A program made the translations under genes and the position numbers. 64,000 nucleotides of DNA from a virus: the IMG/VR virus record IMGVR_UViG_3300027969_000092, positions 1-64,000 of that record; one strand, written 5' to 3'. The number at the start of each line of letters is the position of its first letter. The stretch's first letter is position 1. Shown here one piece after another: positions 14,694 through 32,330 of the stretch. The notes under the pieces were generated by a model. It had not been told where the DNA came from. It made no database searches and saw only the letters and a program-made list of their open reading frames with translations.

Positions 14694-14862
14694 GTCTCAT
14701 TTTCCTTAATTCGTTTTCCATTACCATGGCTTCTTGTTCTGTTGCGCAGACCCATAGCCCCATAAAAGGTTGGTACATACTGGTATCAATGTCCTCTACA
14801 CCAGTGATTGTTTCTAATGTATAACTACCACCTTTGCGATGCTCAACAACAAAGTAGCTCAT
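14668..14862 (-). CDS. Hypothetical protein (64 aa)
   Basis: Not recognised. It appears to be a small alpha/beta protein with beta-like FVVEHRKGGSYTLETI and a C-terminal Glu/Arg helix. The start overlaps the upstream stop by ATGA, and the 3' end overlaps the DUF3310 gene by 26 bases. Confidence 0.7.
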   Translation of the reverse strand: MSYFVVEHRKGGSYTLETITGVEDIDTSMYQPFMGLWVCATEQEAMVMENELRKMRHERSGQPS

Positions 14863-15164
14863 AGCTTCAGTTCCTTTTTAATAAACTCAATGCCTTTAGT
14901 AAAATGATACCGCCAGTACTTCTCACTGACACCAACGTCATAGTACATATGGCCATTGAGAAACGCTGTTAAAACATAGCGTTGCTTTTGTGGCATTTTG
15001 GTATCAATTAATCTACGAATATCAATTATATCATCGTTATCCCAAGGAAGCCAGCCCTCTTGTAATAAATGAAAGCCATCTGGTGCATCGTCTTGCTCAA
15101 TGGGATCTGGATCTTCGTCAGATAGTCTCGGTGTCACCGCTTTTATTTTATGTTTTTTTATCAT
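14859..15164 (-). CDS. Sigma region 4-like HTH protein (101 aa)
   Basis: The C-terminal half reads MPQKQRYVLTAFLNGHMYYD, then VSEKYWRYHFTKGIEFIKKEL. This matches the layout of sigma-70 region 4 (P-x-KQRxV, a turn, SEK-VRYH, and a final helix), though the turn is degenerate. The N-terminal 40 residues are acidic. It is coupled to the helicase gene by ATGA. It may be a DNA-binding transcription factor, but the weak helix-turn-helix leaves this open. Confidence 0.55.
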   Translation of the reverse strand: MIKKHKIKAVTPRLSDEDPDPIEQDDAPDGFHLLQEGWLPWDNDDIIDIRRLIDTKMPQKQRYVLTAFLNGHMYYDVGVSEKYWRYHFTKGIEFIKKELKL

Positions 15165-18972: not shown

Positions 18973-19106
18973 TCTGTTTGTGCCTTCATCATCTCAGCTA
19001 TCAGATGTTGTGTGGTTTCAGGGATTGACGCTACAGGGGCGCCACGGATTAGCAGTCCTAATAGGATCATGCCAGTGTAAAACGATTTTTGGTCTTGCTC
19101 ATTCAT
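18969..19106 (-). CDS. Small protein with one hydrophobic segment (45 aa)
   Basis: MNEQDQKSFYTGMILLGLLI is followed by RGAPVASIPETTQHLIAEMM. Residues 10-21 are hydrophobic but short for a full membrane span. The start overlaps the primase stop (TAATG) and the stop overlaps the glycosyltransferase ATG (ATGA). Unknown function. Confidence 0.72.
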   Translation of the reverse strand: MNEQDQKSFYTGMILLGLLIRGAPVASIPETTQHLIAEMMKAQTE

Positions 19107-21415
19107 TAGAATATACTTTCATCAAAGGTTTGGATTGAGTCGACATACTTCTGTGCCTTCTCGTTTAATTTAACACCACGATAGACATGGGAGCGGTTGC
19201 CGTCTGTTCTATCTAATGCTGATTCAATACGGTGTTCTTGTGTAGCTGCCAAGAAACGACGTTTAAACGCAAGCTCTGTTCCTGGCACAATGCTCTTCTT
19301 CAACGCCCAGTGCTTGTAGCAAGCAAACACTTCGTCTTTAGATACCTTGGATTCAGGTTCAAACACAAGGGCATCTTCTACAAACGAACCGATAGGGTTG
19401 CCCAGTTCACTCATCAACTCTAACAACTCAATGCCCGTCTTAGGTTGGATGAAGTGACCACCACGTGCTAAGCGACGCTTTAAGCCTTCCATTGCCCAGT
19501 TGAAGATACCCGACAGTTCTTGCTCTAACTTGTGTGCTAACTCTGTGTCTTCGTTGTTGTAGAACGAGCGCGTCATCTTAAGCACTACCATACGACCAGT
19601 TAGCGCGTTAGAGTTCTCTGTTAACTGTAAGACCTCGTTTGAATAAACTACTATTCGTGTGGGTAAGTAACCATTCCACGATTCCTTATTTTTTCTATTA
19701 ATGGTGATAGTATCACCTCCCACAATGCGCAACAGCTGACTGACCACAGCAGAACGATTACGCTCAGGAGCACGGGCATCAGTAAAGGATGCAAGGAGTT
19801 TACCCAGCCAAGGTTGTAGTCCAAAAGTATCACAGAGTTCCTCCAGTTGTGGTGCTACAGTGTTGTGTTGTCCTAACAGGGCAACAAGGATTTTGTTAAT
19901 TGTACCTTTACCTGAGCGACGTGGGCCAATAATGTTAAAAAACTTCTGCTGGCTGGTATCTCCTGAGAGGATGTAACCAAACATCTCTTGCAGTGCGTCA
20001 ATAGACTCTTGATCTTCGTCCCAAACGGATTTAAGAAATGCGAGCCATAGTGGGCAGGTGGCGCTTTGGTTGTAAGAGAAAGGGAGAGAGTTTTGTGTAA
20101 AGAAACCCAATGAGTGCGGTATGAGCAATGTGTCTTCAAGGTGGAAGATACCATTCTGAAGAGACACCAACTTAGAGGCATCGGGTTTGTCCTGAGCATA
20201 AGACTCTAACCAAATCGGTGGCTTTGTATTAGCGTGATTGGGTAAGTGGGTAATTGACTTGATGGCATCTAATGCTGCGGATACAGTTGCAGGGGACGGA
20301 TTAAACGCTTCTAATGCGCCCTTCTTACCAGTTTTCTTACATCTGTCTAGGAGGGCATAGAGTCTCGAACGGATAGTAGCCTCTTCAATTACATCATAGT
20401 TTGTGGTGTTGTAGAGGTAGAAGTCCTGAGCATAGTGTACAAGGCGGTAGCCTTCCTCAGAGGAGTAGAGGTTGTCTAGGAATGTACGGGCATGGTTCAT
20501 TGCTCCTTGGTCAAGGATAATCTCGCCACGTTGGAGGGCTTCAGTACGTTCTTGTTGGTTGACCTTAAAGATCAATGAGCGCAATGTGGCACCAGAACCC
20601 TTAAACGTCGGCCACTTGGAATCACATTGACCAGAGGCATAGTTCTCTACTGAACCATCTCCATAGCTCCAACGCTCCCATAGTTCTAGGGCTTCGTAAT
20701 CCCCGCCAAACTGGTGGTGTAGAGCAAACCCTACATTAAGCCAATCCGTATACCCACAGTCGGGTGATATGTGTGTCAGGATCTCTGTCTCTACCCTATG
20801 AATATCATAGTCCGCTACGGGTGGTGCATAATCCTCGAATGCGTCTCCTGTGTTACGAATGGCTCTAGCCGGAATAATGGATGTGAGGTCTTGTGGTTCC
20901 TGTGGCACTGTGCCGGTGAGGTGATGTCCTGTGATGGTGAAGTATCTGCCACGTGGATAGATTTCTAAGCCTTTGGTATGGTCAACGTGGGCATTTGGCA
21001 GTACAGAACGGGTAAATATCTTTACACCAGTACCAGATGGGCTGATTTCCATGTAACCATCAATACTATCTGCTAATTGTTGCAGTGCAGCATTTGTAAA
21101 GCCTTTGTTGGTGTCGTAGCAATCATCTAAATCTACGCCAATGAGGTTGTCTTCATCGGAAAAGACGAATCCAACGCCATCAAAGCGGTTTGGGTTGTCC
21201 TCATAGGCAGATTGGACAGATAGAAAGTCCGCCCATGTTGCTGGGTTGGTTGAGGAGGCAGACTGTCCATTGGATTGGGCTGGCAGTTTTGACCACCTTT
21301 TGGTGTCTCCACTGCCAACTTCCACAAATCGCCATAGAACCCACCTTGGAATACGCTTCAGTTCCATGGGGATGTTTTCAAATATAACTGGTAGGGTGGT
21401 AGGTTTTGTATTCAT
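19106..21415 (-). CDS. Primase-helicase (PrimPol plus D5-like SF3 helicase, 769 aa)
   Basis: This likely synthesises primers and unwinds DNA for the PolA polymerase. The N-terminal part (1-200) has archaeo-eukaryotic primase features: WSKLPAQSNG, IGVDLDDCYD (metal-binding acids), ISPSGTGVKIF and GLEIYPRGRYFTITGHHL. The middle (200-450) resembles DUF3987/D5_N-type linkers. The helicase has Walker A GPRRSGKGT, LASFTDARAPERNR (Walker B region) and IVVYSNEVLQL (sensor). It is the first gene downstream of the 21.4-21.8 kb control region. Confidence 0.93.
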   Translation of the reverse strand: MNTKPTTLPVIFENIPMELKRIPRWVLWRFVEVGSGDTKRWSKLPAQSNGQSASSTNPATWADFLSVQSAYEDNPNRFDGVGFVFSDEDNLIGVDLDDCYDTNKGFTNAALQQLADSIDGYMEISPSGTGVKIFTRSVLPNAHVDHTKGLEIYPRGRYFTITGHHLTGTVPQEPQDLTSIIPARAIRNTGDAFEDYAPPVADYDIHRVETEILTHISPDCGYTDWLNVGFALHHQFGGDYEALELWERWSYGDGSVENYASGQCDSKWPTFKGSGATLRSLIFKVNQQERTEALQRGEIILDQGAMNHARTFLDNLYSSEEGYRLVHYAQDFYLYNTTNYDVIEEATIRSRLYALLDRCKKTGKKGALEAFNPSPATVSAALDAIKSITHLPNHANTKPPIWLESYAQDKPDASKLVSLQNGIFHLEDTLLIPHSLGFFTQNSLPFSYNQSATCPLWLAFLKSVWDEDQESIDALQEMFGYILSGDTSQQKFFNIIGPRRSGKGTINKILVALLGQHNTVAPQLEELCDTFGLQPWLGKLLASFTDARAPERNRSAVVSQLLRIVGGDTITINRKNKESWNGYLPTRIVVYSNEVLQLTENSNALTGRMVVLKMTRSFYNNEDTELAHKLEQELSGIFNWAMEGLKRRLARGGHFIQPKTGIELLELMSELGNPIGSFVEDALVFEPESKVSKDEVFACYKHWALKKSIVPGTELAFKRRFLAATQEHRIESALDRTDGNRSHVYRGVKLNEKAQKYVDSIQTFDESIF

Positions 21416-21468
21416 ACCTGTGATTTTATAGTAAGTTTAAACACTTTGCAAACCTATTTATGTAGGTA

Positions 21469-21483
21469 TTTCACATTATGAAA
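21469..21483. promoter_or_regulatory. Operator-like palindrome upstream of primase
   Basis: TTTCACATTATGAAA, with TTTCA/TGAAA half-sites. The identical 15-mer occurs at 23011 and a near copy at 30615, each in a non-coding control position. It is probably bound by a dimeric repressor or activator that was not identified in the window. Confidence 0.6.
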
Positions 21484-21655
21484 TGCCAATTTGCCAAACC
21501 TCCCCGCAAACCCTTATAGTAGAGCCATTGTCACGGTAGCTTTCCTATAACCACGGGGGTTAGCGGGTGATTTGTCACTTTTTGTCGAAAAATTGTCAGG
21601 GTACAAATGAGAATGATTCCTATTTGACTACCAATAATCAACGACTTACGAACAA

Positions 21656-21778
21656 ATTGTCATAGTAGTCATAGTAGTCACCCTTACTTTTATTATTTTT
21701 ATTATTTTTAAAAAACATAAAGTAAAGAGAGGGGGTAAAAGTGATTTAGACCCTGACTACTGTTACTACTATGACAAT
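21656..21778. repeat. 123-bp inverted-repeat element, copy A
   Basis: Two 25-bp arms (21656-21680 and 21754-21778) are inverted repeats with three mismatches and enclose 73 bp that is very A/T-rich in its left half. The arms are built from overlapping TAGTCATAGTAGTCA-type units. Copy B at 30886-31008 has the same arm length, the same spacer length and clearly related sequence in the same orientation. Confidence 0.9.
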
Positions 21779-21842
21779 CCATAACTTTTAGTTATATAGA
21801 AATTGAAATGCTACTACTTTTGGTTATAAAAAGGGGACGACT

Positions 21843-21980
21843 TTAATAGCATGTCATATAGCCACCCTGGGAGATACACACAGTTTGTCCCCCGTTGGGT
21901 TGATTAATGATGATAGTTTCCGCAGCCAAAACGGGAGAGCTTATAAGGCATACTGTCAATATAACTAAAAGTTTGGTCAT
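21843..21980 (-). CDS. Small exported protein with signal peptide (45 aa)
   Basis: It begins MTKLLVILTVCLISSPVLAA, a classic Sec signal peptide with likely cleavage after VLA. The mature part ETIIINQPNGGQTVCISQGG ends YMTCY and has two cysteines that could form a disulfide in the periplasm. The ATG overlaps the upstream stop as ATGA. A periplasmic role, for example superinfection exclusion, is conceivable but unsupported. Confidence 0.8.
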   Translation of the reverse strand: MTKLLVILTVCLISSPVLAAETIIINQPNGGQTVCISQGGYMTCY

Positions 21981-22171
21981 TTGTTCACCTCATAACCTTT
22001 CTGTTCAATCATTCTGTATGCCCATTTTCTGAACTCAATGCGGTTTTCGCTTGTTTGGGCTTCTTTGTCATCCCATACGGCATCAAGGATATGCTCGCCT
22101 GTGGCATCGTTAAACTCAATCTTTAGCATATTGCCGTCTTTATCATAGATATCTACTGGTATTGCTCTCAT
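21977..22171 (-). CDS. Hypothetical protein (64 aa)
   Basis: The start at 22171 overlaps the previous stop as ATGA, which favours it over an ATG four codons upstream. MRAIPVDIYDKDGNMLKIEF suggests a small beta-rich N-terminus followed by an acidic helix. Unrecognised. Confidence 0.72.
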   Translation of the reverse strand: MRAIPVDIYDKDGNMLKIEFNDATGEHILDAVWDDKEAQTSENRIEFRKWAYRMIEQKGYEVNK

Positions 22172-22440
22172 TTTGCACCCCATGTGTCTTGGTTGTTGTA
22201 ATCGCCTCTAATCATGCTCATTCTTTCGTCTTTCCTACTTTTTGGCTCAACTGCAAGCCATTGTTTAAACATCGCCTGATAGTGTAGGTAGTCATGGTTC
22301 ATCTCAAACAATGGATGATTCATGCCCGCCACATCAACTGTGCTTAATACATCGCTAGACGGAATCCATTTATTTGAATGTCGGATTTTGTCTCGGGCTT
22401 GAATATATAGGGCATATGCTCGTTTTTGTTCGTCAGTCAT
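22168..22440 (-). CDS. Hypothetical protein (90 aa)
   Basis: Unrecognised. It is hydrophilic, with a helical N-terminus MTDEQKRAYALYIQARDKIR and several aromatic residues around HDYLHYQAMFKQWL. It overlaps the sigma-factor gene by eight bases and contains one GTTTAAAC (22263). Confidence 0.72.
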   Translation of the reverse strand: MTDEQKRAYALYIQARDKIRHSNKWIPSSDVLSTVDVAGMNHPLFEMNHDYLHYQAMFKQWLAVEPKSRKDERMSMIRGDYNNQDTWGAK

Positions 22441-23005
22441 CGTGTTTCTCCTCTAGGTGATCATCATTCTTTAACTCATTCAAATATGCGGGTTCTCTTG
22501 ATATGTGGGCTTGCAATTCACTTATACGGACTTCTGACATCTTTGTATGGCTTGATAGCTCTGTCTTGGTAGGTTGCCTACATAACGATTGGGATAGGCT
22601 TCTCTCTATGTATTTGAGCTTCTTGATATCAAGCATGATATTGACAGGCAAACGGATAAGGTTCTCGGTGTTGTTTAACTCCCGCTTAACACCCCTCAAT
22701 ATGAATGGCTTGGCATAGGTGGCAAAACTGGCATTGTTAGTGGGTTTCCATGCCCTTGCTGACATGAATAGGGCTTCATTACCCATGCTAAGGATGTCCT
22801 CAACGGGTGTCTTACCATGTTGCCATGCGGATAGGCTACGGACTACATAGACTACGAATCTAAGGTTGTGTTTGATTAGCTTTTCTAAGGCTTGTTGGTT
22901 GCCCTGTTGAATCTGACTAGCTAATTGGTGCTCCTCTGTAACTGAAAGAGGTTCTATCCCATACAGGGATTGGAGGTAATCACTTAAAATATCATTTTGG
23001 GTCAT
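22433..23005 (-). CDS. Phage sigma-70 family factor lacking region 4 (190 aa)
   Basis: Region 1.2 is visible as DYLQSLYGIEPLSVTEEHQL, region 2 as KLIKHNLRFVVYVVRSLSAW through VEDILSMGNEALFMSARAW, FATYAKPFILRGVKRELN and IRLPVNI, and region 3 as LCRQPTKTELSSHTKMSEVR. The protein then ends in a charged tail, with no -35-binding region 4. It should redirect host RNA polymerase to phage promoters, alone or with a separate region-4 protein. No Shine-Dalgarno is seen; the start codon lies in an inverted repeat. Confidence 0.9.
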   Translation of the reverse strand: MTQNDILSDYLQSLYGIEPLSVTEEHQLASQIQQGNQQALEKLIKHNLRFVVYVVRSLSAWQHGKTPVEDILSMGNEALFMSARAWKPTNNASFATYAKPFILRGVKRELNNTENLIRLPVNIMLDIKKLKYIERSLSQSLCRQPTKTELSSHTKMSEVRISELQAHISREPAYLNELKNDDHLEEKHDD

Positions 23006-23039
23006 CAGGGTTTCACATTATGAAATACGAAACCCTGAT
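23004..23039 (-). promoter_or_regulatory. Hairpin/operator over the sigma-factor start codon
   Basis: An 11-bp perfect inverted repeat, ATCAGGGTTTC (23004-23014) and GAAACCCTGAT (23029-23039), includes the first two bases of the sigma start codon. It also contains TTTCACATTATGAAA (23011-23025). It could hide the start in mRNA, bind a regulator as DNA, or both. No T-run follows, so it is not a normal terminator. Confidence 0.7.
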
Positions 23040-23043
23040 TATA

Positions 23044-23190
23044 TTACTTTTTGTTATATAGGTGGTAATGATGCCAACAATACCATATAAGCAATGGTAG
23101 CCATGTATAGGTTAGTGCTTCCCACGCTAGACTTCCAAGCCACATGATAAAAACTGCGGGTAAATATAATATGTTTGCTACGAAATTCAT
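23044..23190 (-). CDS. Small membrane protein, Trp-rich (48 aa)
   Basis: MNFVANILYLPAVFIMWLGS followed by LAWEALTYTWLPLLIWYCWH gives two hydrophobic segments and six tryptophans, ending HHYHLYNKK. The start overlaps the upstream stop as ATGA. It is the gene just before the sigma factor, with 38 bases between. Unknown function. Confidence 0.75.
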   Translation of the reverse strand: MNFVANILYLPAVFIMWLGSLAWEALTYTWLPLLIWYCWHHYHLYNKK

Positions 23191-23369
23191 ATCAATGCCT
23201 CTTTTAATAATGCGGTTGCCAACTCGTAATCTGTTGGTTGGGTTGGGAGTTCGGTTAGGGTCATGCCCTCTGTTAAGTAGGGCTTTGCCTCTCGTCTTGA
23301 TGCAAACTTACGCAATGCCCCACCGAACTCATCAACAAGGATAAATTTATAGACAGATCGTTTAAACAT
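23187..23369 (-). CDS. Hypothetical protein (60 aa)
   Basis: Unrecognised. MFKRSVYKFILVDEFGGALR looks like a beta hairpin, followed by FASRREAKPYL and a final helix. GTTTAAAC overlaps its first codons. It is coupled by ATGA to the following membrane gene. Confidence 0.7.
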   Translation of the reverse strand: MFKRSVYKFILVDEFGGALRKFASRREAKPYLTEGMTLTELPTQPTDYELATALLKEALI

Positions 23370-23508
23370 CTTCTTCGTTGTCGTATAGACTATACTCCTC
23401 CTCGATCATTTCAATAACTTTCAATCGCCACATTAGCGTAGTCTTATCCTCATACTCATCTTCCAACTCAGAGTTAAGGATTGCATCTTCAATTTGATCT
23501 TGGGTCAT
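23362..23508 (-). CDS. Hypothetical acidic protein (48 aa)
   Basis: Start at 23508, with GAGGAG eight bases upstream and an ATGA overlap with the preceding gene. It is strongly acidic (SELEDEYEDK, EEEYSLYDNEEDV) and helical. Acidic small early proteins often bind and inhibit host enzymes; this is only a possibility here. Confidence 0.7.
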   Translation of the reverse strand: MTQDQIEDAILNSELEDEYEDKTTLMWRLKVIEMIEEEYSLYDNEEDV

Positions 23509-23723
23509 GTTCTGCTCCTCATAATGTCTGCTACTTCTTTGGTTATAACAACACAATCGCCTACGGGTGCTCGTCTTTCCATTCTGTCAAAACCATATAT
23601 CAAGCCATTTGCCTCGTAATACTCCTTTGGCGGGTCAAGATATATCGTGCATCCTAACTGTCTAGATACTTTGCAAGCAAATCCCCTGTGCAACACATAA
23701 TCTCCAAATTTAACAATGTCCAT
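23505..23723 (-). CDS. Hypothetical protein (72 aa), paralogue of the next gene at its C-terminus
   Basis: MDIVKFGDYVLHRGFACKVS suggests a small beta-barrel fold. The end ITKEVADIMR is shared with the neighbouring 23726-23905 gene, and the underlying 27 bases (23520-23546 and 23738-23764) are identical. The start follows the GTTTAAAC junction directly. Confidence 0.7.
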   Translation of the reverse strand: MDIVKFGDYVLHRGFACKVSRQLGCTIYLDPPKEYYEANGLIYGFDRMERRAPVGDCVVITKEVADIMRSRT

Positions 23724-23725
23724 GT

Positions 23726-23905
23726 TTAAACACCTCGCATAATGTCTGCTACTTCTTTGGTTATGGGGTACAACTCATCATTAGATACAATCTTGGGGTG
23801 CTTGTTTCCATCCAGATCGAATATGTTTATCTGGGTATACATACCACCCACCACCCACACTTGACCAACATCCTCATTGGTCATAACCCAATCATTAGGG
23901 TTCAT
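23726..23905 (-). CDS. Hypothetical protein (59 aa), paralogue of the preceding gene
   Basis: Start at 23905 (ATGA overlap). MNPNDWVMTNEDVGQVWVVG and a following IFDLDGNKHPKIV suggest a small beta-barrel fold. It ends ITKEVADIMRGV, with the stop inside GTTTAAAC. It arose with its neighbour by duplication or shares a recombination site with it. Confidence 0.7.
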   Translation of the reverse strand: MNPNDWVMTNEDVGQVWVVGGMYTQINIFDLDGNKHPKIVSNDELYPITKEVADIMRGV

Positions 23906-24711
23906 TCCATCACCCAATATGAGGATTCGTTTTCCCTTAAACCAACACCCTCAACAAAATCCTTTCCGTCTGTGATATCCAACACAAACATCTTGCCTTT
24001 GATATCTTCAGGTAGATCATCTTTGTTGGCTAGTTTTACTACATCCTTTGTGCCGTCTTTGATGTATTGCACCTCATTGGCTTTGACCCACACAAAATAT
24101 GTGACGGGTTTGTAGTCGTGATATTTGTCAATCTGCTCTCGGTTAGTTACTAAATACTCCATTGCATTTTTAAATGTAGGGGACTTAGGTGTATAGCCTG
24201 TGCTATGTAAGTAAAGCATATCTTCATAAGCAAGGTTAAACGCACCATTGGTCTTTTGATTTACTTCCCATGACCATTTGTTGCGTAAAGATTGGACTGC
24301 TTGTTCGTAGTTTCGCTTGCAACTCTCAATGTGTTGGAAGATAGTAATGGGTGCTAATGTTTTCTTAGCAATCTTCACAATGTTCTTAGCGTGGATAGAC
24401 TGTTTCATTTGACCCATACCACCATACCCGTATCTACCATCATCAATGTTGCGGTTGGTAATGGTGTATTTGCCGTCATACCTATGCTTTCCAATCTCCC
24501 CAATCTGCGTGTTTGGGTCATCGGCATGGTATATCTTCAATCCGAAACAAACACCCTGTTTAAACTCATCGGGCATATTGTATGTAGATATGTCGCATGG
24601 CTTATATGACAAATTGGGTATAGCACTTTGGATGTCTTTAGCTAGTGCCACTAAATTAGAATCAACAAACGGAATGTCGTTAAATGGTTCGCAAATAATT
24701 TTATCACTCAT
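23902..24711 (-). CDS. Hypothetical protein (269 aa)
   Basis: No family recognised. It is soluble, mixed alpha/beta, with a glycine-tyrosine patch DDGRYGYGGMGQMKQS near residue 90, a central helical region (IESCKRNYEQAVQSLRNKW) and a C-terminal beta-rich part. It lies next to another unknown and the VWA/MoxR pair, all read in one direction, so it may be a partner or substrate of that system. Confidence 0.8.
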   Translation of the reverse strand: MSDKIICEPFNDIPFVDSNLVALAKDIQSAIPNLSYKPCDISTYNMPDEFKQGVCFGLKIYHADDPNTQIGEIGKHRYDGKYTITNRNIDDGRYGYGGMGQMKQSIHAKNIVKIAKKTLAPITIFQHIESCKRNYEQAVQSLRNKWSWEVNQKTNGAFNLAYEDMLYLHSTGYTPKSPTFKNAMEYLVTNREQIDKYHDYKPVTYFVWVKANEVQYIKDGTKDVVKLANKDDLPEDIKGKMFVLDITDGKDFVEGVGLRENESSYWVME

Positions 24712-24721
24712 AATTTTCTCC

Positions 24722-25681
24722 TCAATTAAACCAAGATTTATAGCGGTCTTTACACATCTTACCCAATGGCACTTCTACTTCTTTAACAGGTTTAAACAAC
24801 TCGTAAGCATGTTTGTTCAACAACTTGGGTAACTTTTCTTTGTGATAAGTGACGATTGATTTAGGATTTTGTCTATCTGTCCAATCATAGCGTTCATTTT
24901 TAATGAGATATTTGTAACTCTCTGCTATTGCAAACCAATGTTGGGGTGCATTGTCATCAACTTGTTTAAACATATCGTGCTCGTCTATATCTAATTCTTG
25001 GCAAGCAAGGGTAATGGGGTTTTGCCAATAACCCACATACTTATCATCCACCATGTCCACCATGACATTTAAATACTCTATCAATGGCTTAATTTGTGCT
25101 CTTACTTCCTTGGTTTTTGTGCGGTCTAATTGGTGTATTGTTTCACGATGCACTACCAATGGTTGCCAATACTTATCACCCTGTTTGCGTGTAAATGTAG
25201 TATCACCCTTCTCTGCGGTGTAATACTGAAAGCCATCCTCTGTTGATACTGCAACATACTTACAAGAATTGTGATTGACCATGTTTAAACCGATTGGTAG
25301 GTTGTAATGGTAAAACCCGAATGTTGATGCACTACTCAAATACTTAGGATGTAACTGTGTGCCTTCTTTCCAATATGCCTTTGGTGTGTGGACTGTAACA
25401 GTTTCAATGCCATCGTTTAAACACCATGTAATAGCCCTGTTCAATGTTCTGTTACTGTGTTGCCATGCGTCAAACACAATCGCATATTCTGTGTCGCTAA
25501 TCTTTAAAACTTGTTCCCAATCCCTTCTGCGTTCACCACATGGTCGAATGTTCAATGCTTTGCGTTTGCCTTGCAATGGTTTGATTGATTCATAACGGGA
25601 TTTAATCTTCTCAAAATCCGAATAGGTTTGTGTTTGTGCCTGTACTTCCATTGGCGTTCTCATGTAATTTCCGTAACCCAT
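24722..25681 (-). CDS. Hypothetical protein (319 aa)
   Basis: Start at 25681, three bases after the VWA gene stop, with GAGGAG upstream. An N-terminal region MGYGNYMRTPMEVQAQTQTY is followed by a segment containing RPCGERRRDWEQVLKI and YAIVFDAWQHSNRTL. The latter and CLNDGIETVTVHTP suggest an alpha/beta domain. It contains three GTTTAAAC copies. No family recognised; clustering with the VWA gene suggests a functional link. Confidence 0.8.
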   Translation of the reverse strand: MGYGNYMRTPMEVQAQTQTYSDFEKIKSRYESIKPLQGKRKALNIRPCGERRRDWEQVLKISDTEYAIVFDAWQHSNRTLNRAITWCLNDGIETVTVHTPKAYWKEGTQLHPKYLSSASTFGFYHYNLPIGLNMVNHNSCKYVAVSTEDGFQYYTAEKGDTTFTRKQGDKYWQPLVVHRETIHQLDRTKTKEVRAQIKPLIEYLNVMVDMVDDKYVGYWQNPITLACQELDIDEHDMFKQVDDNAPQHWFAIAESYKYLIKNERYDWTDRQNPKSIVTYHKEKLPKLLNKHAYELFKPVKEVEVPLGKMCKDRYKSWFN

Positions 25682-25682
25682 C

Positions 25683-26843
25683 TTAATTCTCCTCAATATG
25701 AATTGCTGACCCAATGGTAGGGTTAGCGTGTTTGTTGTTTACAATAGCCCATAAAACAGGGCAACTCCATGACCCACCCCAATCGTTACCAACATGACCA
25801 TCCGTTAAGACAATGGCACAAACTGGGTCAATCTTATGCTTACTCATGTACTTAGTAATGCAAGAGGGTCGTGTACCACCACCCCCGACTGGCTTAGTTG
25901 ATGATGTCATGCGGGTGGCATCGTTTAAACCATATACCTCATGCCCCGCCACTTCGCTATCCCAATAGATCAGATCGACTTGTTCAGGGTTCACATTCTC
26001 CATAATGCTTGCAACTTCAGAGATAAACCTATTAAGGATGTCACCTTGGATAGACCCCGATGTATCAATGGCAACAACAACTCGACCCATAGTTTCACTA
26101 TATTGTGATGGCATATAGATGTCATGTTGTAACCATCTGCGGTTAGGTTTTCTCCATGTTGAATCGTCTTTGCCTTGGCATATAGCCGATACAAATTCAC
26201 GGAGAGCATCTTTCCAATTTACCTTGGCACTCATAAGATCATCAAACGATCTGTTTAAACTACCCCCCACCTTACCCGCTAAGATTGCACCTTGTCTAAT
26301 GGCTTGGTCGATCTCTTTGGCTAATTCTTGGGCTTGGGCATCTGTCATCTCCTCTGCTCCTTCCCAATCATGCTCATCGAACCCGCCACCCATGCCTTGC
26401 CCACCATCTTGACTGTCTAGCAATGCAAACACCTCGGCACTATTTAAGCCACGATACTTCTCGTCATGTAAGCCACCCTTGGGTAATGTTACAAACCCAT
26501 TACTAGCTTTGCCCTCATCGACAATCTCAATGTTAATCACATAGTCACAAGCCATATTTGCCCGTTGTGGGTCTTGCTTATTTAAGTGTTTCCATGTCAG
26601 TAGATGTCTATACATTTTGTGCTTTGCCTCATGCAAGATAACACCCCGCAAATCGGCATCGTTTAAACTCTCTACAAACTCCCTACCAAAATACACATCT
26701 TTACCATTGGTGCAAGCGGTTGGCACATCGTCTTTAACCTTAGCCTCGCCAATCATTAAGATACCTGAATAGGCAACAAACTGCGGGGACTTCATTAAAT
26801 CAATGTGTGCTCTTTCAATGCGTTGTTCTGCGGTTAGTGCCAT
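25683..26843 (-). CDS. VWA domain protein with N-terminal metallopeptidase motif (DUF2201-like, 386 aa)
   Basis: The N-terminal domain has GVILHEAKHKMYRH (HExxH at His71-His75), as in DUF2201_N. A Gly/Asp/Glu-rich linker (about 145-175) leads to a VWA-like domain with the MIDAS motif VVAIDTSGSIQG (about 255), GGGGTRPS and AIVLTDGHVGND. Proteins of this kind pair with a MoxR AAA+ ATPase to remodel or activate targets, metal loading included. Here the MoxR gene is encoded upstream, separated by two short genes. Confidence 0.92.
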   Translation of the reverse strand: MALTAEQRIERAHIDLMKSPQFVAYSGILMIGEAKVKDDVPTACTNGKDVYFGREFVESLNDADLRGVILHEAKHKMYRHLLTWKHLNKQDPQRANMACDYVINIEIVDEGKASNGFVTLPKGGLHDEKYRGLNSAEVFALLDSQDGGQGMGGGFDEHDWEGAEEMTDAQAQELAKEIDQAIRQGAILAGKVGGSLNRSFDDLMSAKVNWKDALREFVSAICQGKDDSTWRKPNRRWLQHDIYMPSQYSETMGRVVVAIDTSGSIQGDILNRFISEVASIMENVNPEQVDLIYWDSEVAGHEVYGLNDATRMTSSTKPVGGGGTRPSCITKYMSKHKIDPVCAIVLTDGHVGNDWGGSWSCPVLWAIVNNKHANPTIGSAIHIEEN

Positions 26844-27012
26844 GATTTTCCCTTTCGATTTGATTTAAAAAGTGTGCCTTTAATTCTGCACCCGTTCTAG
26901 ACTTATAAGTTCGATTGTATTTTTCAAACTTGTACTTGCCCTCGGTGACTGTATTCCTACCAACTCCCCACCTCTCATCTGAATGATCTAATGAATATGC
27001 TTGCCACTCCAT
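26815..27012 (-). CDS. Hypothetical basic protein (65 aa)
   Basis: Start at 27012, with GAGGAG eight bases upstream. MEWQAYSLDHSDERWGVGRN is followed by a Lys/Tyr-rich KYKFEKYNRTYKSRTGAELK. The 3' end overlaps the VWA gene by 29 bases. Unrecognised. Confidence 0.7.
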   Translation of the reverse strand: MEWQAYSLDHSDERWGVGRNTVTEGKYKFEKYNRTYKSRTGAELKAHFLNQIERENHGTNRRTTH

Positions 27013-27014
27013 AA

Positions 27015-27125
27015 TCAATTCTCCTCTTTAAAGTAAAGACAAAACACAATGTAACCAACAATGCCCCAAGCCAATATCCCGCTATATGCTAAGAATGTAA
27101 AAAGGTAATCGTAAAATGTCATCAT
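27015..27125 (-). CDS. Single-span membrane peptide (36 aa)
   Basis: MMTFYDYLFTFLAYSGILAW then GIVGYIVFCLYFKEEN. It is almost entirely hydrophobic with a short charged C-terminus, so a single long or kinked membrane span. It begins directly after GTTTAAAC with GGGAG upstream, the standard island junction. It lies between MoxR and VWA, and could tether them to the membrane; that is speculative. Confidence 0.7.
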   Translation of the reverse strand: MMTFYDYLFTFLAYSGILAWGIVGYIVFCLYFKEEN

Positions 27126-27127
27126 GT

Positions 27128-28207
27128 TTAAACTCCCTGTGCAAATAGGTAATTGTTATTGGTAGCCCATTTAATGAACCCTTGATTAGTGCCAACTGTT
27201 GCCTTCTTGGATGTACGCATAACACTCGTGGCAAACAATCCCTGTGCCTCTTTGGATAGTCTGTCTAGATACTTCATAAACTTAGACACATCATCTTTTT
27301 CAATCCTTTGGATTGCTGAATAGATAAGCATACAAACGGCACTAGGGGACTTAGGAATGGCACACTTATCGGGGTTGGCTAGTACATCTTCCCATTGTGG
27401 CAACTCGTCATTTAATTGGATGATAGAGAGCATATCGTAGGTGGCTCGTTTTCCTATCGTGCCTGTGAGAGTATGCCCCATGATGTTTAAACCTAATCCC
27501 TTGGTTTTCTTAATGATGTCACTAGCCTTTTCTAAACTGCGTGGGGTAGTAAATGCGGGTCTAGGTGCTCTTGGGTCGTAGATATATTCATTGTCGCTTG
27601 CCTTGTCGAAATCCTCAAAACTTCCAAGCATTTGGGGGAATTGTTTTACAGTCAATAAAACTTCAGGGGCAATGTTGTTCTCTAATGCCCATTCAATCCA
27701 TTGGTCTGCTGATGGCTTGCGAACCTTTACAACTGCTAAGCGATTGCGGGCATGGGGTGGTAGATTGTCCCCAATAGCCTCATTAGCAAGGTTTGTAGTG
27801 GCGAACACAATAGACCCCTTGGGTAGATCATATATGCCTAGCTTGCGTTCTAGCATCAATCTAAGGCAAGCGTTCATTACTGCTTTACTTGCCTTGCCGA
27901 TCTCATCAAGCATTAACACAATGGGCTTATTAAGGTGAAAGCCGAATTCCTCATTGGGTATGAATGAGCACACCTCTGTGCCGTCAATGGTACGGATTTT
28001 AGGCACTAAAAAATCCCCTACATCCTTGGTAGTCATATCGCCATAACATACAAAATGATCGGGCAATTTGGCTTGTAACATCTTGAGCATGGATGACTTA
28101 CCAATACCCATTTCGCCTTGTGCTAGGACTGTTACGCTGTCCCCTACGGCATGAATAAGGTCGGCACACTCTTGGAGAGTGACTGATTTGTATAGATCGT
28201 TTGACAT
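27128..28207 (-). CDS. MoxR-type AAA+ ATPase (359 aa)
   Basis: Walker A is GEMGIGKSS (Lys37), Walker B is IVLMLDEIGKA (about 93-103), sensor 1 is IVFATTNLANEAIG and the arginine finger region is LPPHARNRLAVV. This matches MoxR-family chaperone-like ATPases that act with VWA proteins, as in RavA-ViaA. The pair with 25683-26843 suggests a phage-encoded remodelling machine aimed at a host or phage protein. AAAGGAG partly overlaps GTTTAAAC before the start. Confidence 0.93.
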   Translation of the reverse strand: MSNDLYKSVTLQECADLIHAVGDSVTVLAQGEMGIGKSSMLKMLQAKLPDHFVCYGDMTTKDVGDFLVPKIRTIDGTEVCSFIPNEEFGFHLNKPIVLMLDEIGKASKAVMNACLRLMLERKLGIYDLPKGSIVFATTNLANEAIGDNLPPHARNRLAVVKVRKPSADQWIEWALENNIAPEVLLTVKQFPQMLGSFEDFDKASDNEYIYDPRAPRPAFTTPRSLEKASDIIKKTKGLGLNIMGHTLTGTIGKRATYDMLSIIQLNDELPQWEDVLANPDKCAIPKSPSAVCMLIYSAIQRIEKDDVSKFMKYLDRLSKEAQGLFATSVMRTSKKATVGTNQGFIKWATNNNYLFAQGV

Positions 28208-28222
28208 GGTGTTTAAACTCCT

Positions 28223-28318
28223 TTAATTGGTATAGGTTGGGTTATATAAATCAGGTGCTATACAAGCCACAAAAAACAGGCAAAGCAATAAGACAATAAT
28301 TGCGATATTTTCTCTCAT
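28223..28318 (-). CDS. Small membrane or lipoprotein-like peptide (31 aa)
   Basis: MRENIAIIVLLLCLFFVACI then APDLYNPTYTN. One hydrophobic segment ends at FFVAC, resembling a lipobox although the -3 residue is Phe. The ATG overlaps the upstream stop (ATGA). Unknown function. Confidence 0.6.
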   Translation of the reverse strand: MRENIAIIVLLLCLFFVACIAPDLYNPTYTN

Positions 28319-28389
28319 AATGTCGTTCCCCATAATAGCAAAATGGCAATAAATATGGCTAGGGATAAACCCTTTAATAAATAGATCAT
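28315..28389 (-). CDS. Very small membrane peptide (24 aa)
   Basis: MIYLLKGLSLAIFIAILLLW ends GTTL. One membrane span. It starts at a canonical GTTTAAAC-ATG junction with AAGGAAGG upstream and is coupled by ATGA to the next small membrane gene. The size makes it tentative, but both signals agree. Confidence 0.6.
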   Translation of the reverse strand: MIYLLKGLSLAIFIAILLLWGTTL

Positions 28390-28391
28390 GT

Positions 28392-28550
28392 TTAAACACC
28401 TTCCTTTGGTTTTGTATTAGTTGAATAATGGCTTTTTATATAGTCGGACAATATGTCAGTCAATCTACCTGAATCCCCATAAAACCAATTATCGGCTTCA
28501 ATGTATTCAAGTAAATCTTCAAGGGCTTGAAATTCTGCATATGTCATCAT
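28392..28550 (-). CDS. Hypothetical acidic protein (52 aa)
   Basis: MMTYAEFQALEDLLEYIEAD then NWFYGDSGRLTDILSDYIKS. It is helical and acidic. It starts at a GTTTAAAC-ATG junction with AAGGAG, and its TAA stop lies within the next GTTTAAAC. Unrecognised. Confidence 0.72.
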   Translation of the reverse strand: MMTYAEFQALEDLLEYIEADNWFYGDSGRLTDILSDYIKSHYSTNTKPKEGV

Positions 28551-28552
28551 GT

Positions 28553-28711
28553 TTAAACCACTCCTTCAGGTATCTGTTTAAATAAATAATATAAATGGTC
28601 AGGCACATAAACAACTTGCCCTTCTTCATCTCTAAATTCGTGTCCATCGGGGGTCAATGCTTTTCCCCGTTGGTCTATGTGGTAAAACTGTTCATAAATT
28701 GGGGTAATCAT
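28553..28711 (-). CDS. Hypothetical protein (52 aa)
   Basis: MITPIYEQFYHIDQRGKALT then PDGHEFRDEEGQVVYVPDHL. Beta-rich, aromatic. Flanked on both sides by the GTTTAAAC junction (start preceded by GGGAG, stop in the next copy). Unrecognised. Confidence 0.72.
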   Translation of the reverse strand: MITPIYEQFYHIDQRGKALTPDGHEFRDEEGQVVYVPDHLYYLFKQIPEGVV

Positions 28712-28713
28712 GT

Positions 28714-28956
28714 TTAAACACTCCCGTCTAATAGGTTGTCAAAATAGGACTGTGGCAACTCGGGGGCTTGGACACCATCAAGCCATTTATTGATGTGGCG
28801 GGTTGTTGTCTTGCTCCATTTCGTATCAGTCTTAGAAAATGAATAAGTGCTCTTATCAAAACTAGCAACGGGTGTGGAATAGCTGAATAAGACTATCTGA
28901 TTATTTGATTCTAAGAGGGTCATATTAGATGCGAGAATTTTTACTTGTAATGACAT
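28714..28956 (-). CDS. Conserved phage hypothetical protein (80 aa)
   Basis: It has a beta-rich start (VKILASNMTLLESNNQIVLF) and a KTTTRHINKWLDG segment near residue 48 that recurs in short phage proteins (DUF8033-like by memory, not verified). It ends in GSV with the stop in GTTTAAAC. Function unknown. Confidence 0.7.
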   Translation of the reverse strand: MSLQVKILASNMTLLESNNQIVLFSYSTPVASFDKSTYSFSKTDTKWSKTTTRHINKWLDGVQAPELPQSYFDNLLDGSV

Positions 28957-29008
28957 GGTGTGATTCCTTTGTGGTTGGTTTTAAGGGGGTTTTTAGCCCC
29001 CGTTTGGG

Positions 29009-29212
29009 TTAGATGGTGGGCTTGCCTAGCATTTGTGCTAATTCGTTATAGACTGCGGTTCTAGTGCCTTTTAGACCTAGCTCCTTTTTAACTAGGCTAT
29101 ACATGGTCATGCCCCTTGATACTCTCATTCCTTTGATCTCAAGACCTAGACCCCGTAGGATAGTTATGTAACGGAATGTTGCTATTTGTGTTGGATTGGT
29201 GATCATGGTCAT
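29009..29212 (-). CDS. Hypothetical protein (67 aa)
   Basis: MTMITNPTQIATFRYITILR followed by MRVSRGMTMYSLVKKELGLK. The second half looks like a small helical DNA- or protein-binding module and recurs in phages. GGAG lies about eight bases upstream of the first ATG. Unknown function. Confidence 0.7.
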   Translation of the reverse strand: MTMITNPTQIATFRYITILRGLGLEIKGMRVSRGMTMYSLVKKELGLKGTRTAVYNELAQMLGKPTI

Positions 29213-29215
29213 GGT

Positions 29216-29389
29216 TTATTCTCCTAAATAAAAATTGTCTGACATTACTACGGGTAGGTAATTATTACGGATCTGTCTAAGTGCTCCCGAATCTTTCCCG
29301 CTATACCATAGCAAGGACAATTCGTTTTTCCAATTAGCCCCATGTATACGGGCAAACTCTCTTAATGCGGTGATCTGTGTATCGTTCAT
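29216..29389 (-). CDS. Hypothetical protein (57 aa)
   Basis: MNDTQITALREFARIHGANW then KNELSLLWYSGKDSGALRQI. The WK-x-x-LxxxW-xSGxDSGxLRQIRN pattern is a recurrent small phage protein of unknown function. It is separated from the next gene by three bases. Confidence 0.72.
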   Translation of the reverse strand: MNDTQITALREFARIHGANWKNELSLLWYSGKDSGALRQIRNNYLPVVMSDNFYLGE

Positions 29390-29447
29390 GGTGTTAGTTT
29401 CCTTTGGTGTTGTTTAAACATGGCGGGGGTTTGCCCCGCCTGTTGGT

Positions 29448-30038
29448 TTAATCTTCTTTAATCTCTACTGTCATACCCCATCCGTAGGCTTCACAGTCTT
29501 GGTCAGGGCAAGTAGGTAGGGCAACTTCGATCCATTTCTTAGATGTGTACACCTGATACTCACAATGTGAGCATACGCATTTGATTTGGCGGGTGGTTTG
29601 CTTTTTGGTGTTGGATTGCATTAGGGGGGCATGTGGATATTGTCCCGCTTGATCTACCCATGACTGAATGAGGGCTTTCAATTCGGCATTGGCACTAGCT
29701 GATCTCATTTGACCCTCTAATCCTACGGCATTGGCACATTGTTTAAACACCTTGCCATGTCCCGCCTTGTTGCCTACTGTGGCATGGCATAACTCATGGA
29801 TAAGGATATCAATAACCTCTACGCTATCGGCTACCTTGGGGCTAATGAAGATCTCTGATGTATTGTCCTCACTATTGGCACTAGACCAACATTCGCCAAT
29901 GTGTTTCTTACTAGATGTAAGGGAACAAGACATTCTGACATTGTCGGGGATGGTGTAACCCGCTTTGGCAAAATGCGGTCTAGCATATGTATCGGTGATG
30001 TAGTTGAGGTATGTTTCTCTGTTGGTAGTGTGGTTCAT
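29448..30038 (-). CDS. SprT-like zinc metalloprotease (196 aa)
   Basis: The catalytic motif is ILIHELCHATVGN (His81, Glu82, His85) with KAGHGKVFK supplying a third His (94). The C-terminus has a zinc ribbon: CVCSHC followed by CPDQDC. Eukaryotic SPRTN cuts DNA-protein crosslinks; bacterial SprT is poorly known. It is the first gene of the island transcript, about 1 kb from the late genes, so it is probably expressed early. Confidence 0.9.
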   Translation of the reverse strand: MNHTTNRETYLNYITDTYARPHFAKAGYTIPDNVRMSCSLTSSKKHIGECWSSANSEDNTSEIFISPKVADSVEVIDILIHELCHATVGNKAGHGKVFKQCANAVGLEGQMRSASANAELKALIQSWVDQAGQYPHAPLMQSNTKKQTTRQIKCVCSHCEYQVYTSKKWIEVALPTCPDQDCEAYGWGMTVEIKED

Positions 30039-30361
30039 GGTTTGCTCTATTCCTTAGTGGTTAGTTGTCATGGGTTAGCCCCATAACTTAAACAATATAG
30101 ATGTTTTGGCATTGTGTCTAATAATAAAAAGTAATATAGGAATGGTTCTTTATACTAAGGGTTAACCCTGACAAAATCGAGATCGCATGGGGTGTAATAG
30201 TAAGGCAAGCCAAGCGATCAAGTCGGCTATAAACCCCCTTAAAACCCCTTGGCTTCGATTGTCATTTTGTCGGGTAGTTTTCTTGATCTTGGTGGCGGGT
30301 TCTTTTTGATGCGTTGCAACATTACTTCCACTCTCCCTCTCAGCTCTCGCACCCGCATAGC

Positions 30362-30611
30362 TATGTTGCACCGCACAAAAACCATACTGCCATTGTGGTT
30401 ATGTTGCACCGCAACATATTGTTTAAACACCATGCCATTATGTTAGTGTGTGCTAACATCCGTATCATCTATGTTGCACCGCACCATTATGTTGCGTTGC
30501 ACAATAACCATATTGCCATTGTGGTTATGTTGCACCGCACAAAGACCATGATGCCATTGTGGTTATGTTGCACCACACCATTATGTTGCGTTGCATCATT
30601 GTTGCACCGCA
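30362..30611 (+). repeat. Iteron-like array of TATGTTGCACCGCA, six copies
   Basis: Copies at 30362, 30400, 30470, 30526, 30564 (one mismatch) and 30598 (shortened match). All have the same orientation, with spacings of about 38, 70, 56, 38 and 34 bp. GTTGCGTTGCA variants and CCATTGTGGT blocks lie between. Directly repeated sites next to an A/T-rich palindrome resemble replication-initiator iterons. Confidence 0.85.
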
Positions 30612-30614
30612 CCA

Positions 30615-30649
30615 TTTCACATTATGAGATATGATTTCACAATGCGAAA
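30615..30649. promoter_or_regulatory. Tandem operator-like palindromes, 20 bp apart
   Basis: TTTCACATTATGAGA (30615-30629) and TTTCACAATGCGAAA (30635-30649) are variants of the palindrome at 21469 and 23011. Their starts are exactly 20 bp apart, about two helical turns, as expected for cooperative binding by a regulator. Confidence 0.65.
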
Positions 30650-30826: not shown

Positions 30827-30890
30827 CGCTCGTAAGTCCTTGATAGTTCGTAGAAGTTGTATGACGAGGCGCTCGTAAGTCCTTGATAGT
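30827..30890 (+). repeat. Perfect 21-bp direct repeat pair
   Basis: CGCTCGTAAGTCCTTGATAG plus T occurs at 30827-30847 and 30870-30890. An inverted 15/17 match lies at 21637-21653, immediately before element A. The second copy runs into the left arm of element B. Confidence 0.85.
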
Positions 30891-31008
30891 AACAGTAGTC
30901 ATAGTAGTCACCCTTACTTTTTATTATTTTATTATTTTAAAAAAATAAAAAACGTATAGGGAGCCCTAAAGTGATTTAGACCCTGACTACTATGACTACT
31001 GTTACTAT
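30886..31008. repeat. 123-bp inverted-repeat element, copy B
   Basis: Perfect 25-bp arms (30886-30910 and 30984-31008) around 73 bp with a TTATTATTTTATTATTTT-type core. It shares arms, spacer length, the CCCTTACTTTT edge and the GTGATTTAGACCC edge with copy A. It ends about 45 bp before the first late-gene promoter. Confidence 0.92.
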
Positions 31009-31069: not shown

Positions 31070-31375
31070 AGCAAGTATGTCTATCAAATCCAAGGTGCAT
31101 TGGAAAATGCCCGTGGCCAACTCAAAGGCCTGCGAATTCTGATATGCGACGTGCACAACATCGATATGGTAGACGTACCAGTGGAAATCTTGGACCAAGC
31201 AACAGCCAAGTATCTGCAGTTTAGGATTAGTATTACATCCAACGCTGTCAATATCCAACGACTGCCAGTCGAAGTCCAAAACAAAATACGCGCTCCGTTA
31301 GGGAGATGGCTGGACCATTGGGTCCTAGAAAACTTTCATGGCAATCCTAGCAAACGAAAAAGTACTAACCCTTGA
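31067..31375 (+). CDS. Hypothetical protein from a probable leaderless mRNA (102 aa)
   Basis: Not recognised. MSKYVYQIQGALENARGQLK is helical, and the middle (ILICDVHNIDMVDVP) is beta-like. No Shine-Dalgarno can exist because the promoter core is directly upstream. It overlaps the intein-like gene by 38 bases. As first gene of the packaging unit it could be a packaging or regulatory factor; unproven. Confidence 0.75.
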   Translation: MSKYVYQIQGALENARGQLKGLRILICDVHNIDMVDVPVEILDQATAKYLQFRISITSNAVNIQRLPVEVQNKIRAPLGRWLDHWVLENFHGNPSKRKSTNP

Positions 31376-32330
31376 CTATTGGAAACCAGCCCGCCTTCTA
31401 AAGGTCGGTGATTATGTATTTGACCGTACTGGCAAGCTGGTACAGGTTAAATTGGTACAAGAGTACCGTGCCCAGCGGTGCTACCTAGTACAGTTCTCTG
31501 ACAACCTGACCATGTCCGGTGATGAGAACCTTGGATTTCTCACAGAAAACAAGTTCCACCGCAGCAGAATCCACCAGTATAAGCAAGTTCGCAAGTTCAA
31601 ACGCCCATTACGGCATATTGACGTTAAGCAACTACTTACCAAGTCTCTCAAATGTCGACCAGTAGAGTATCAGTACTCCATTCAGACTGCGCAACCCCTG
31701 GAATTACCCCACCAAACCCTGCCAGTACCCCCATTTGTGTTTGGTTTTTGGTTTTTTAACCGCAAAATGAACCGGCGCATGACGCCACCCAAAGGTTTTA
31801 AGGACGATGTACACCAGGAATTCAAAGACGCTGGGTACAAACTGACAGAAGGGTGGCTATCCGAATCAGGTGAACGGGAATTCTCTGCGCTTCCTAGCAT
31901 TGAGCACCACTTACTGCCTAACATCCCTTACAAAATTCCGAATAACTACCTGTTGGCGGACAAAGACCAGCGAATTGCCCTGCTCCGTGGCATAATTTAT
32001 TCCAAACCCCGGCAATACAACCACAAAACTGACACGTTTCGGTTTTCTAACAAGAATTTAAGTGTTGTGCAGCAGGTTCAGTCCCTGGTAGAGTCCTTGG
32101 GGCATAGAACTACCCTGCAACACAACGAACCTAACGGTACCTATATACTTTTATTTAGAAGTAAGTTAAAATTGGTATCTAACCAAGTATCAAAACCTTT
32201 AAAAATTGTATATGGACGTAGATTCATACGGGCTATTGAAGAAATAGCGCCACAATCTTGCGTTCATATTGAAACCACTGCACCAGACAACACTATTCTC
32301 GTAGGAGAAGGATTTATTTCAACATGTTGA
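31338..32330 (+). CDS. Free-standing intein-like (Hint) protein with degenerate LAGLIDADG domain (330 aa)
   Basis: The N-terminus LANEKVLTLDYWKPARLLKV followed by GDYVFDRTGKLVQV matches intein block A/B (V-T-x-x-G-x-x-x-x-x-L-x-x-GD), without the nucleophilic Cys1. The centre has RIALLRGIIYSKPRQY and LVESLGHRTTL, resembling a LAGLIDADG endonuclease block that lacks the DADG acids. The end CVHIETTAPDNTILVGEGFI plus STC resembles intein blocks F/G without the usual HN. It therefore looks like an inactive intein relic, and it overlaps the terL start by seven bases. Confidence 0.8.
   Translation: MAILANEKVLTLDYWKPARLLKVGDYVFDRTGKLVQVKLVQEYRAQRCYLVQFSDNLTMSGDENLGFLTENKFHRSRIHQYKQVRKFKRPLRHIDVKQLLTKSLKCRPVEYQYSIQTAQPLELPHQTLPVPPFVFGFWFFNRKMNRRMTPPKGFKDDVHQEFKDAGYKLTEGWLSESGEREFSALPSIEHHLLPNIPYKIPNNYLLADKDQRIALLRGIIYSKPRQYNHKTDTFRFSNKNLSVVQQVQSLVESLGHRTTLQHNEPNGTYILLFRSKLKLVSNQVSKPLKIVYGRRFIRAIEEIAPQSCVHIETTAPDNTILVGEGFISTC

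Follow-up and report, generated by a model that had tools for sequence, protein, structure and literature searches.

The stoperators of the cluster A mycobacteriophages are dozens of copies of a short site that are tied to one phage protein and occur in lineage-specific variants. They are asymmetric, their orientation follows that of transcription, and the corresponding repressor is monomeric and has two DNA-binding domains (PMC9283540, PMC4351075). The cluster O mycobacteriophages (Corndog) have a 17-bp repeat, TGTTCGG-N3-CCGAACA, in 34 copies (PMC4351075), and the dispersed motifs of the Nostoc cyanophages A-1 and N-1, present in 43 and 21 copies, have been suggested to be stoperators (PMC4916379). 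Here we describe an array of the 8-bp palindrome GTTTAAAC in the window, a stretch of 64,000 nucleotides of the IMG/VR virus record IMGVR_UViG_3300027969_000092, together with the SprT-like protein encoded at 29448..30038 on its minus strand. We consider it likely that GTTTAAAC forms the core of a symmetric site of about 20 bp serving a stoperator-like control of transcription, with the SprT-like protein as its candidate reader.

The GTTTAAAC array and selection on the site

The window contains 25 copies of GTTTAAAC, 21 of which lie within positions 21435-30428. The sequence-only reading, made from the letters of the window before the present analysis, had given the same number for this island, whereas its three copies elsewhere have to be corrected to four (4891, 10196, 19261 and 58121). 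The whole virus record of 66,261 bp holds the same 25 copies and no further ones. Dinucleotide shuffles of the whole window yielded a mean of 2.07 copies and a maximum of 6. As had been stated earlier, both coding and non-coding DNA are occupied, since 12 of the island copies are located within coding sequence, five at GTTTAAAC-ATG junctions and four between genes. A null model which resampled codons while keeping proteins and codon usage fixed (2000 runs) produced 1.93 coding copies on average and at most 6 against the 12 observed, bearing out the proposed pressure on the nucleotide sequence itself. Both nulls, the shuffles and the codon model, are rejected. Versions of GTTTAAAC with one mismatch are depleted in the island, with three in comparison to 45 in the other 55 kb.

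Related IMG/VR phages carry 14-40 GTTTAAAC per locus, where about 0.5 would be expected. In nucleotide alignments with these phages the motif columns were identical in 62.6% and differed by one mismatch in 0.5% of the cases, compared with 16.6% and 23.1% for the flanking 8-mers. The near-absence of one-mismatch forms indicates that GTTTAAAC is either retained whole or lost completely. The same all-or-none pattern, accompanied by amino-acid changes, was found in codon alignments of the VWA and MoxR genes of the island, in which small insertions of two or three residues creating GTTTAAAC were also seen; the four of 25 sequences not carrying the site at 25923 use entirely different codons. Absence of the motif at matching positions in related phages had been named by the sequence-only reading as evidence that would speak against it. 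Related carriers retain GTTTAAAC at the same codons, and where it is missing the sequence deviates by 3-6 mismatches and not by drift. As judged from these alignments, the 8-mer is under strict selection at the DNA level.

Among 461 unique copies we observed dyad-symmetric preferences reaching about 20 bp, most clearly for A/G at -5 (0.88) and C/T at +12 (0.80), and furthermore for C/G at -6 and +13, T at -1 (0.46) and A at +8 (0.58). The -5/+12 preference holds separately for intragenic, gene-edge and intergenic sites, and the same preference for R at -5 and Y at -1 recurs in 259 sites of unrelated phages. The full consensus, S-R-nnn-Y-GTTTAAAC-R-nnn-Y-S, is two-fold symmetric and roughly 20 bp long; symmetric flanks of this kind are the trace to be expected of a dimeric DNA-binding protein covering about 20 bp. 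Being palindromic with symmetric flanks, the site is not of the asymmetric, transcription-oriented type. No second box at a fixed distance was detected downstream among the 461 copies, which argues against a promoter element. A promoter element of a phage sigma factor was rejected for this reason and for want of any tie to the sigma gene, and an RNA hairpin because a gapless palindrome of 8 bp is too short. In almost all of 19 loci the sites are spaced more regularly than at random (coefficient of variation 0.43-0.66 in comparison to about 0.95), with P about 0.02 or less in most of them.

The five junction copies (23724, 27126, 28390, 28551 and 28712) all lie on the minus strand as GTTTAAAC-ATG, with the TAA of the upstream gene inside the palindrome. 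These identical junctions, already pointed out by the sequence-only reading, are real and could suggest an element acting on the mRNA or on translation at gene junctions. Such a role seems very improbable, since 16 of the 21 copies are not junctions of this type, both open coding frames are used and the palindromic flank preferences extend to non-coding sites. Moreover, the sites of the cultured phages R5C and Pan1 are spread over the whole genome and mostly intragenic.

The SprT-like protein and its association with the arrays

The SprT-like protein comprises 196 amino acids and is encoded by the first gene of the early operon. It matches Pfam family PF10263 with E=1.4e-9 and 38.2 bits, above the curated cut-off of 25.6, and retains the HExxH motif as HELCH. 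Its C-terminus contains KKQTTR and a zinc-ribbon-like module. This C-terminal module (YPHA...KKQxTRLxK..C..CGY...KWL..P.CP) is conserved even in members without HExxH, a motif found in 19 of 37 SprT-like sequences, some of which are fragments, and missing from the other 18. HExxH was lost in the phage group with the densest arrays, which argues for a non-proteolytic core function. This second phage group with protease-dead SprT-like proteins consists of L314, L255, L216, L223, L241, L198 and L228; the PF10263 profile did not match the relatives L314, L255 and L223.

Scanning IMG/VR blindly for a single junction pattern provided 119 loci, of which about 50 have at least five GTTTAAAC at densities of up to 4.45 per kb, mostly in phages unrelated to that of the window. 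When all open reading frames of the scan loci were clustered, the SprT-like family was the most enriched one, occurring in 30 of 47 array-rich and 3 of 66 array-poor loci (Fisher p = 3.6e-12, the loci not being independent). Among loci L005-L121 the SprT hidden Markov model gave no match outside array loci, and partial contigs account for the six array loci that it did not match. In the reverse search, which was based on the protein only, 77 of 80 loci encoding SprT-like relatives contained GTTTAAAC. Sixty of the 80 loci are unrelated to the window according to VWA, MoxR, sigma factor, primase and TerL, and hold 365 GTTTAAAC in comparison to 11.0 expected; control 8-mers, mostly AT-rich palindromes, occurred 6-34 times each compared with 409 GTTTAAAC in a set that includes five loci with distant TerL matches. 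Furthermore, 11 of 12 unrelated array carriers have the SprT-like protein in common with the window; no other window protein is shared with more than three of them.

The array was also detected in cultured phages with 62-63% G+C. Dinoroseobacter phage R5C has 17 GTTTAAAC (0.16 expected), Pseudanabaena phage Pan1 16 (0.11 expected) and Burkholderia phage Mica 7 (0.20 expected). A restriction or modification site, or an accident of composition or codon usage, is hardly credible in the light of these GC-rich genomes with expectations of at most 0.2, the enrichment in one operon and the rejected shuffles and codon null, even if GTTTAAAC, the PmeI site, is an ordinary 8-bp palindrome. The modification site considered by the sequence-only reading is unlikely because only a single operon is targeted in the window phage.

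In R5C and Pan1 the sites occur throughout the genome at intervals of about 4.5 kb, mostly inside genes, and more evenly than random (P 0.014 and 0.005, respectively). A genome-organising role is therefore possible, in which the sites would serve compaction, partition, protection or recombination and not the control of transcription. The even spacing and the many coding sites would suit such a role. Nevertheless, it appears rather improbable, since the array of the window phage is confined to the early operon and ends at the leader of the next operon, and since in Mica, as in several actinophages, the leader of the SprT-like gene carries sites. One of the Mica sites immediately follows a TACAAT -10-like box and is separated by 13 bp from the downstream start of the SprT-like gp69, a placement that would correspond to the geometry of self-repression.

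No GTTTAAAC was found in Arthrobacter and Microbacterium phages with SprT-like genes. Several actinophage SprT-like leaders contain TGTTTACAC adjoining a -10-like box, and GTTTACAC, an asymmetric one-base variant of GTTTAAAC, was therefore searched for in actinophages. Genome-wide arrays of GTTTACAC were detected in Zeta1847 (22), Reedo (28), Emotion (17) and UtzChips (23), where the reversed-pattern control gave 0, as well as in Arthrobacter phage Powerpuff, which has A. globiformis B-2979 as laboratory host and encodes the SprT-like gp49 (27, reversed control 0). The prediction drawn from the SprT-like leaders thus held. The SprT-like protein of Microbacterium phage Eden (L397, 9001-9579) lacks KKQxTR, and its genome is free of GTTTAAAC and GTTTACAC; this protein may read another site or none. 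No relevant report of GTTTAAAC or GTTTACAC in phages was found in a search of the literature. Taken together, the comparisons show that the protein family co-occurs tightly with arrays of GTTTAAAC, or of GTTTACAC in actinophages, across unrelated phages at the level of their genome sequences. Since protein and arrays co-occur in many otherwise unrelated phages, the SprT-like protein itself is the most likely, predicted binder.

Alternatively, another phage or host protein could read GTTTAAAC, and the SprT-like protein would be its partner, processing or removing that reader. HExxH is preserved in a large number of members, among them the window protein, and phage proteins of the SprT type are presumed to be proteases with host proteins as their targets (PMC7824862). 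Co-occurrence alone cannot tell a binder from a partner. We regard a partner role as unlikely, taking into account that no other window protein recurs in nearly all of the unrelated array carriers, that the phage group whose arrays are densest has protease-dead versions and that the site variant, GTTTAAAC or GTTTACAC, changes with the SprT clade.

Several points weigh against the SprT-like protein as reader in a stoperator-like system. Co-occurrence is no proof of contact, and the protein could assist the true binder. A SprT-like gene was not detected in 15 of 41 array-rich scan loci, many of them fragments, and six SprT-positive loci have only 1-3 GTTTAAAC. The loci are not phylogenetically independent, and neither are the locus counts independent observations. 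Comparison of the family profile with solved structures by sequence gave no match, and no integrase was found among those window proteins, a part of the set, that were scanned against family libraries. Finally, the distribution of the sites varies from one operon in the window phage to the whole genome in R5C, Pan1 and the actinophages, and one function may not fit all.

The early operon and parallel arrays in relatives

The island corresponds to a leftward early operon with the gene order SprT-like, small genes, MoxR, DUF2201/VWA, two larger genes of unknown function and sigma factor (22433-23005), followed by the primase-helicase (19106-21415). The block bearing the array includes a MoxR-type ATPase gene (27128..28207, minus strand, phrog_1297) and a DUF2201 metallopeptidase/VWA-like gene (25683..26843, minus strand, PF13203 and PF09967).

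The sites are given here from right to left, with the number of aligned related carriers in which they are intact, based on nucleotide alignments unless a codon alignment is stated. The first site (30421..30428; 4 of 7 carriers) belongs to the early-operon leader and precedes the start of the SprT-like gene by 383 bp; the second lies within this gene (29741..29748) and the third directly downstream of it (29412..29419; 19 of 19). The gene junctions at 28712..28719 (TAA inside and ATG after; 5 of 5), 28551..28558 and 28390..28397 are followed by a site ahead of the MoxR gene (28211..28218), one within it (27485..27492, covered by the codon alignment) and the junction following it (27126..27133; 3 of 3). 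The VWA gene contains sites at 26661..26668 (AGT TTA AAC; 20 of 25, and 18 of 25 in the codon alignment), 26253..26260 (likewise in the codon alignment) and 25923..25930 (GGT TTA AAC; 21 of 25, with a variable following codon). Within the 24722-25681 gene sites were found at 25415..25422 (13 of 13), 25283..25290, 24964..24971 (5 of 5) and 24790..24797, and within the 23902-24711 gene at 24558..24565. The remaining sites are a junction (23724..23731; 4 of 4), one at overlapping gene ends (23360..23367), one within the 22168-22440 gene (22263..22270; 3 of 3) and one in the leader of the primase gene (21435..21442), which marks the left edge of the array.

The sister phages G024, L086-L088, L094, L100 and L105 are without the SprT/MoxR/VWA block and without the array. 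Their identity to the window phage amounts to 83-95% for TerL, where it is in the locus, and to 52-73% for the sigma factor; lacking the array despite similar sigma and TerL proteins, they exclude sigma factor, primase and terminase as readers. The sigma factor was rejected specifically because phages with a 72-73% identical sigma lack the array. The 24722-25681 protein was dismissed since the G015 copy is 51% identical while the motif is different, and the 80-residue protein 28714-28956 since its gene is absent from most unrelated carriers; the AlphaFold2 model of the latter (pLDDT 88) gave no significant match against the PDB (best E 0.085). The MoxR-VWA block is not a sufficient cause, as MoxR and VWA also occur, without an array, in the N4-like Presley, CRP-7 and phage G.

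Some further features of the window were noted. The island is flanked by two copies of a promoter-like element, AGTAGTCAGGGTCTAAATCACTTT...AAGTAAGGGTGACTACTATGACTACT, which is about 130 bp long (21650-21790 and 30880-31000), and the early-operon leader (30380-30620) is composed of GCGGTGCAACATAACCACAATGG-like repeat units with TGTTGC-GGT-GCAACA hairpins. The sigma factor resembles regions 2/3, and a 101-residue protein (14859-15164), 7 kb away, appears region 4-like by eye without a Pfam match; the two possibly form a split sigma factor. Directly before the TerL gene, the protein 31338-32330 shows a weak LAGLIDADG match (E 0.003) and matches inserts in terminase profiles, and is likely derived from a Hint domain or intein. 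In phages that otherwise differ strongly (G009-G017), an 87-residue protein (12720-12983) retains 71-87% identity, in contrast to all its neighbouring genes.

Relatives with MoxR-VWA but without the SprT-like gene have dispersed inverted repeats of different sequence in this operon, namely TACTGTC-n-GACAGTA, TAATGTC-n-GACATTA, TCGGGAC-n-GTCCCGA, GTTAGTC-n3/4-GACTAAC, TTAACA-n2-TGTTAA, GTTATAAC and others. Such lineage-specific repeats were found in L024, L026, L037-L040, L043, L047, L058, L059, L071, L072, L074, L078, L083 and others. The cultured Synechococcus phage MinM2 (L191, OQ594354.1) combines a MoxR/VWA/DUF3150 block with an array of GGTTCAGnCTGAACC; 17 of these or similar sites are located in 40 kb, and 13 of the 17 fall within 16.5 kb of the early region. 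Its first-gene protein is MM2_92. MinM2 has the same length as Planktothrix phage Pag-Yong1; the records OQ594354.1, OL906435.1 and PP438419.1 all comprise 65,014 bp and are named for different cyanobacterial hosts.

In the relatives with other repeats the product of the first gene is hypervariable and mostly 160-220 residues long. Among pairs of loci whose VWA is 65-100% identical, the median N-terminal similarity of this protein was 0.50 when the motif was the same and 0.06 when motifs were different (p = 5e-14, pairs not being independent). G021 and L068, with 90% identical VWA and differing motifs, have first-gene proteins with near-identical C-terminal domains and unrelated N-terminal parts; by this comparison they are a natural domain swap, with the N-terminal part tracking the motif. 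The first-gene protein was rejected as a GTTTAAAC reader because it has no homologue in GTTTAAAC carriers, and its model (pLDDT 76) had no match in the PDB. Furthermore, a Cro-like helix-turn-helix gene ahead of the primase in relatives was discarded since its recognition helix is alike across different motifs. Based on the different first-gene families with repeats of their own, the early operon seems to need a dispersed-site regulator, a post filled by differing protein families.

Proposed role and comparison with known systems

The SprT-like protein would act as a transcriptional regulator that binds its site probably via the conserved C-terminal KKQxTR and zinc-ribbon-like module, represses its own promoter and blocks elongation at dispersed sites in the manner of stoperators. 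In the window phage it would silence or shut off the early operon headed by its own gene. The intragenic dispersed sites, the geometry of self-regulation and the confinement to one operon suggest that a stoperator-like roadblock fits better than a classical promoter switch. The dispersed stoperator-like operator and the nucleotide-level pressure were rightly listed by the sequence-only reading, which recognised the array; its ideas on junctions and modification were not sustained, and the associated protein and the link to other phages had escaped it.

In temperate relatives with genome-wide arrays the SprT-like protein may be the missing immunity repressor. Powerpuff is temperate by experiment and its lysogens are immune without an identifiable repressor; likewise, this and other phages of clusters AZ/EH have immune lysogens or integrases, yet "lack identifiable repressors" (PMC8758107). 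For these phages the SprT-like protein is a candidate.

Plausible, if short of likely, is the wider proposal that phage SprT-like proteins form a novel class of master regulators which bind DNA sequence-specifically, descend from a protease fold and are in many cases protease-dead. They would read GTTTAMAC arrays in phages of cyanobacteria, Pseudomonadota and Actinomycetota and include the missing cluster AZ/EH repressor, while unrelated, fast-diversifying first-gene proteins with palindromes of their own would do the same job in related phages. Phages frequently carry SprT-like genes, which are annotated as proteases; connecting them with a particular DNA site provides a function that can be tested. 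Dispersed phage repeats, unexplained since those of clusters O and K, become approachable by seeking the gene that travels with the site.

Like the cluster A stoperators recognised by the L5-type immunity repressor, GTTTAAAC occurs in many copies in coding and non-coding DNA. In contrast to them, the core in the window is palindromic and the candidate protein SprT-like, only the GTTTACAC of the actinophages being asymmetric. The cluster O repeats share the invariant inverted repeat, the intergenic and coding locations and the higher density in one leftward operon (PMC4351075), but differ from GTTTAAAC in sequence. The SAS/ESAS of cluster K and the 18-bp inverted repeats of cluster EG Microbacterium phages are also repeated conserved sites in early or right-arm operons (PMC7302621), whereas start-associated sequences are fixed near start codons, where only five of the 21 window sites are found. 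The motifs of the Nostoc cyanophages are dispersed as well but asymmetric, located mostly between open reading frames and without an assigned protein (PMC4916379). With the SprT/Spartan-type metalloproteases the window protein shares the match to PF10263 and the HExxH motif; unlike these, the phage members have an additional conserved C-terminal module, may be devoid of HExxH and co-occur with a particular DNA site.

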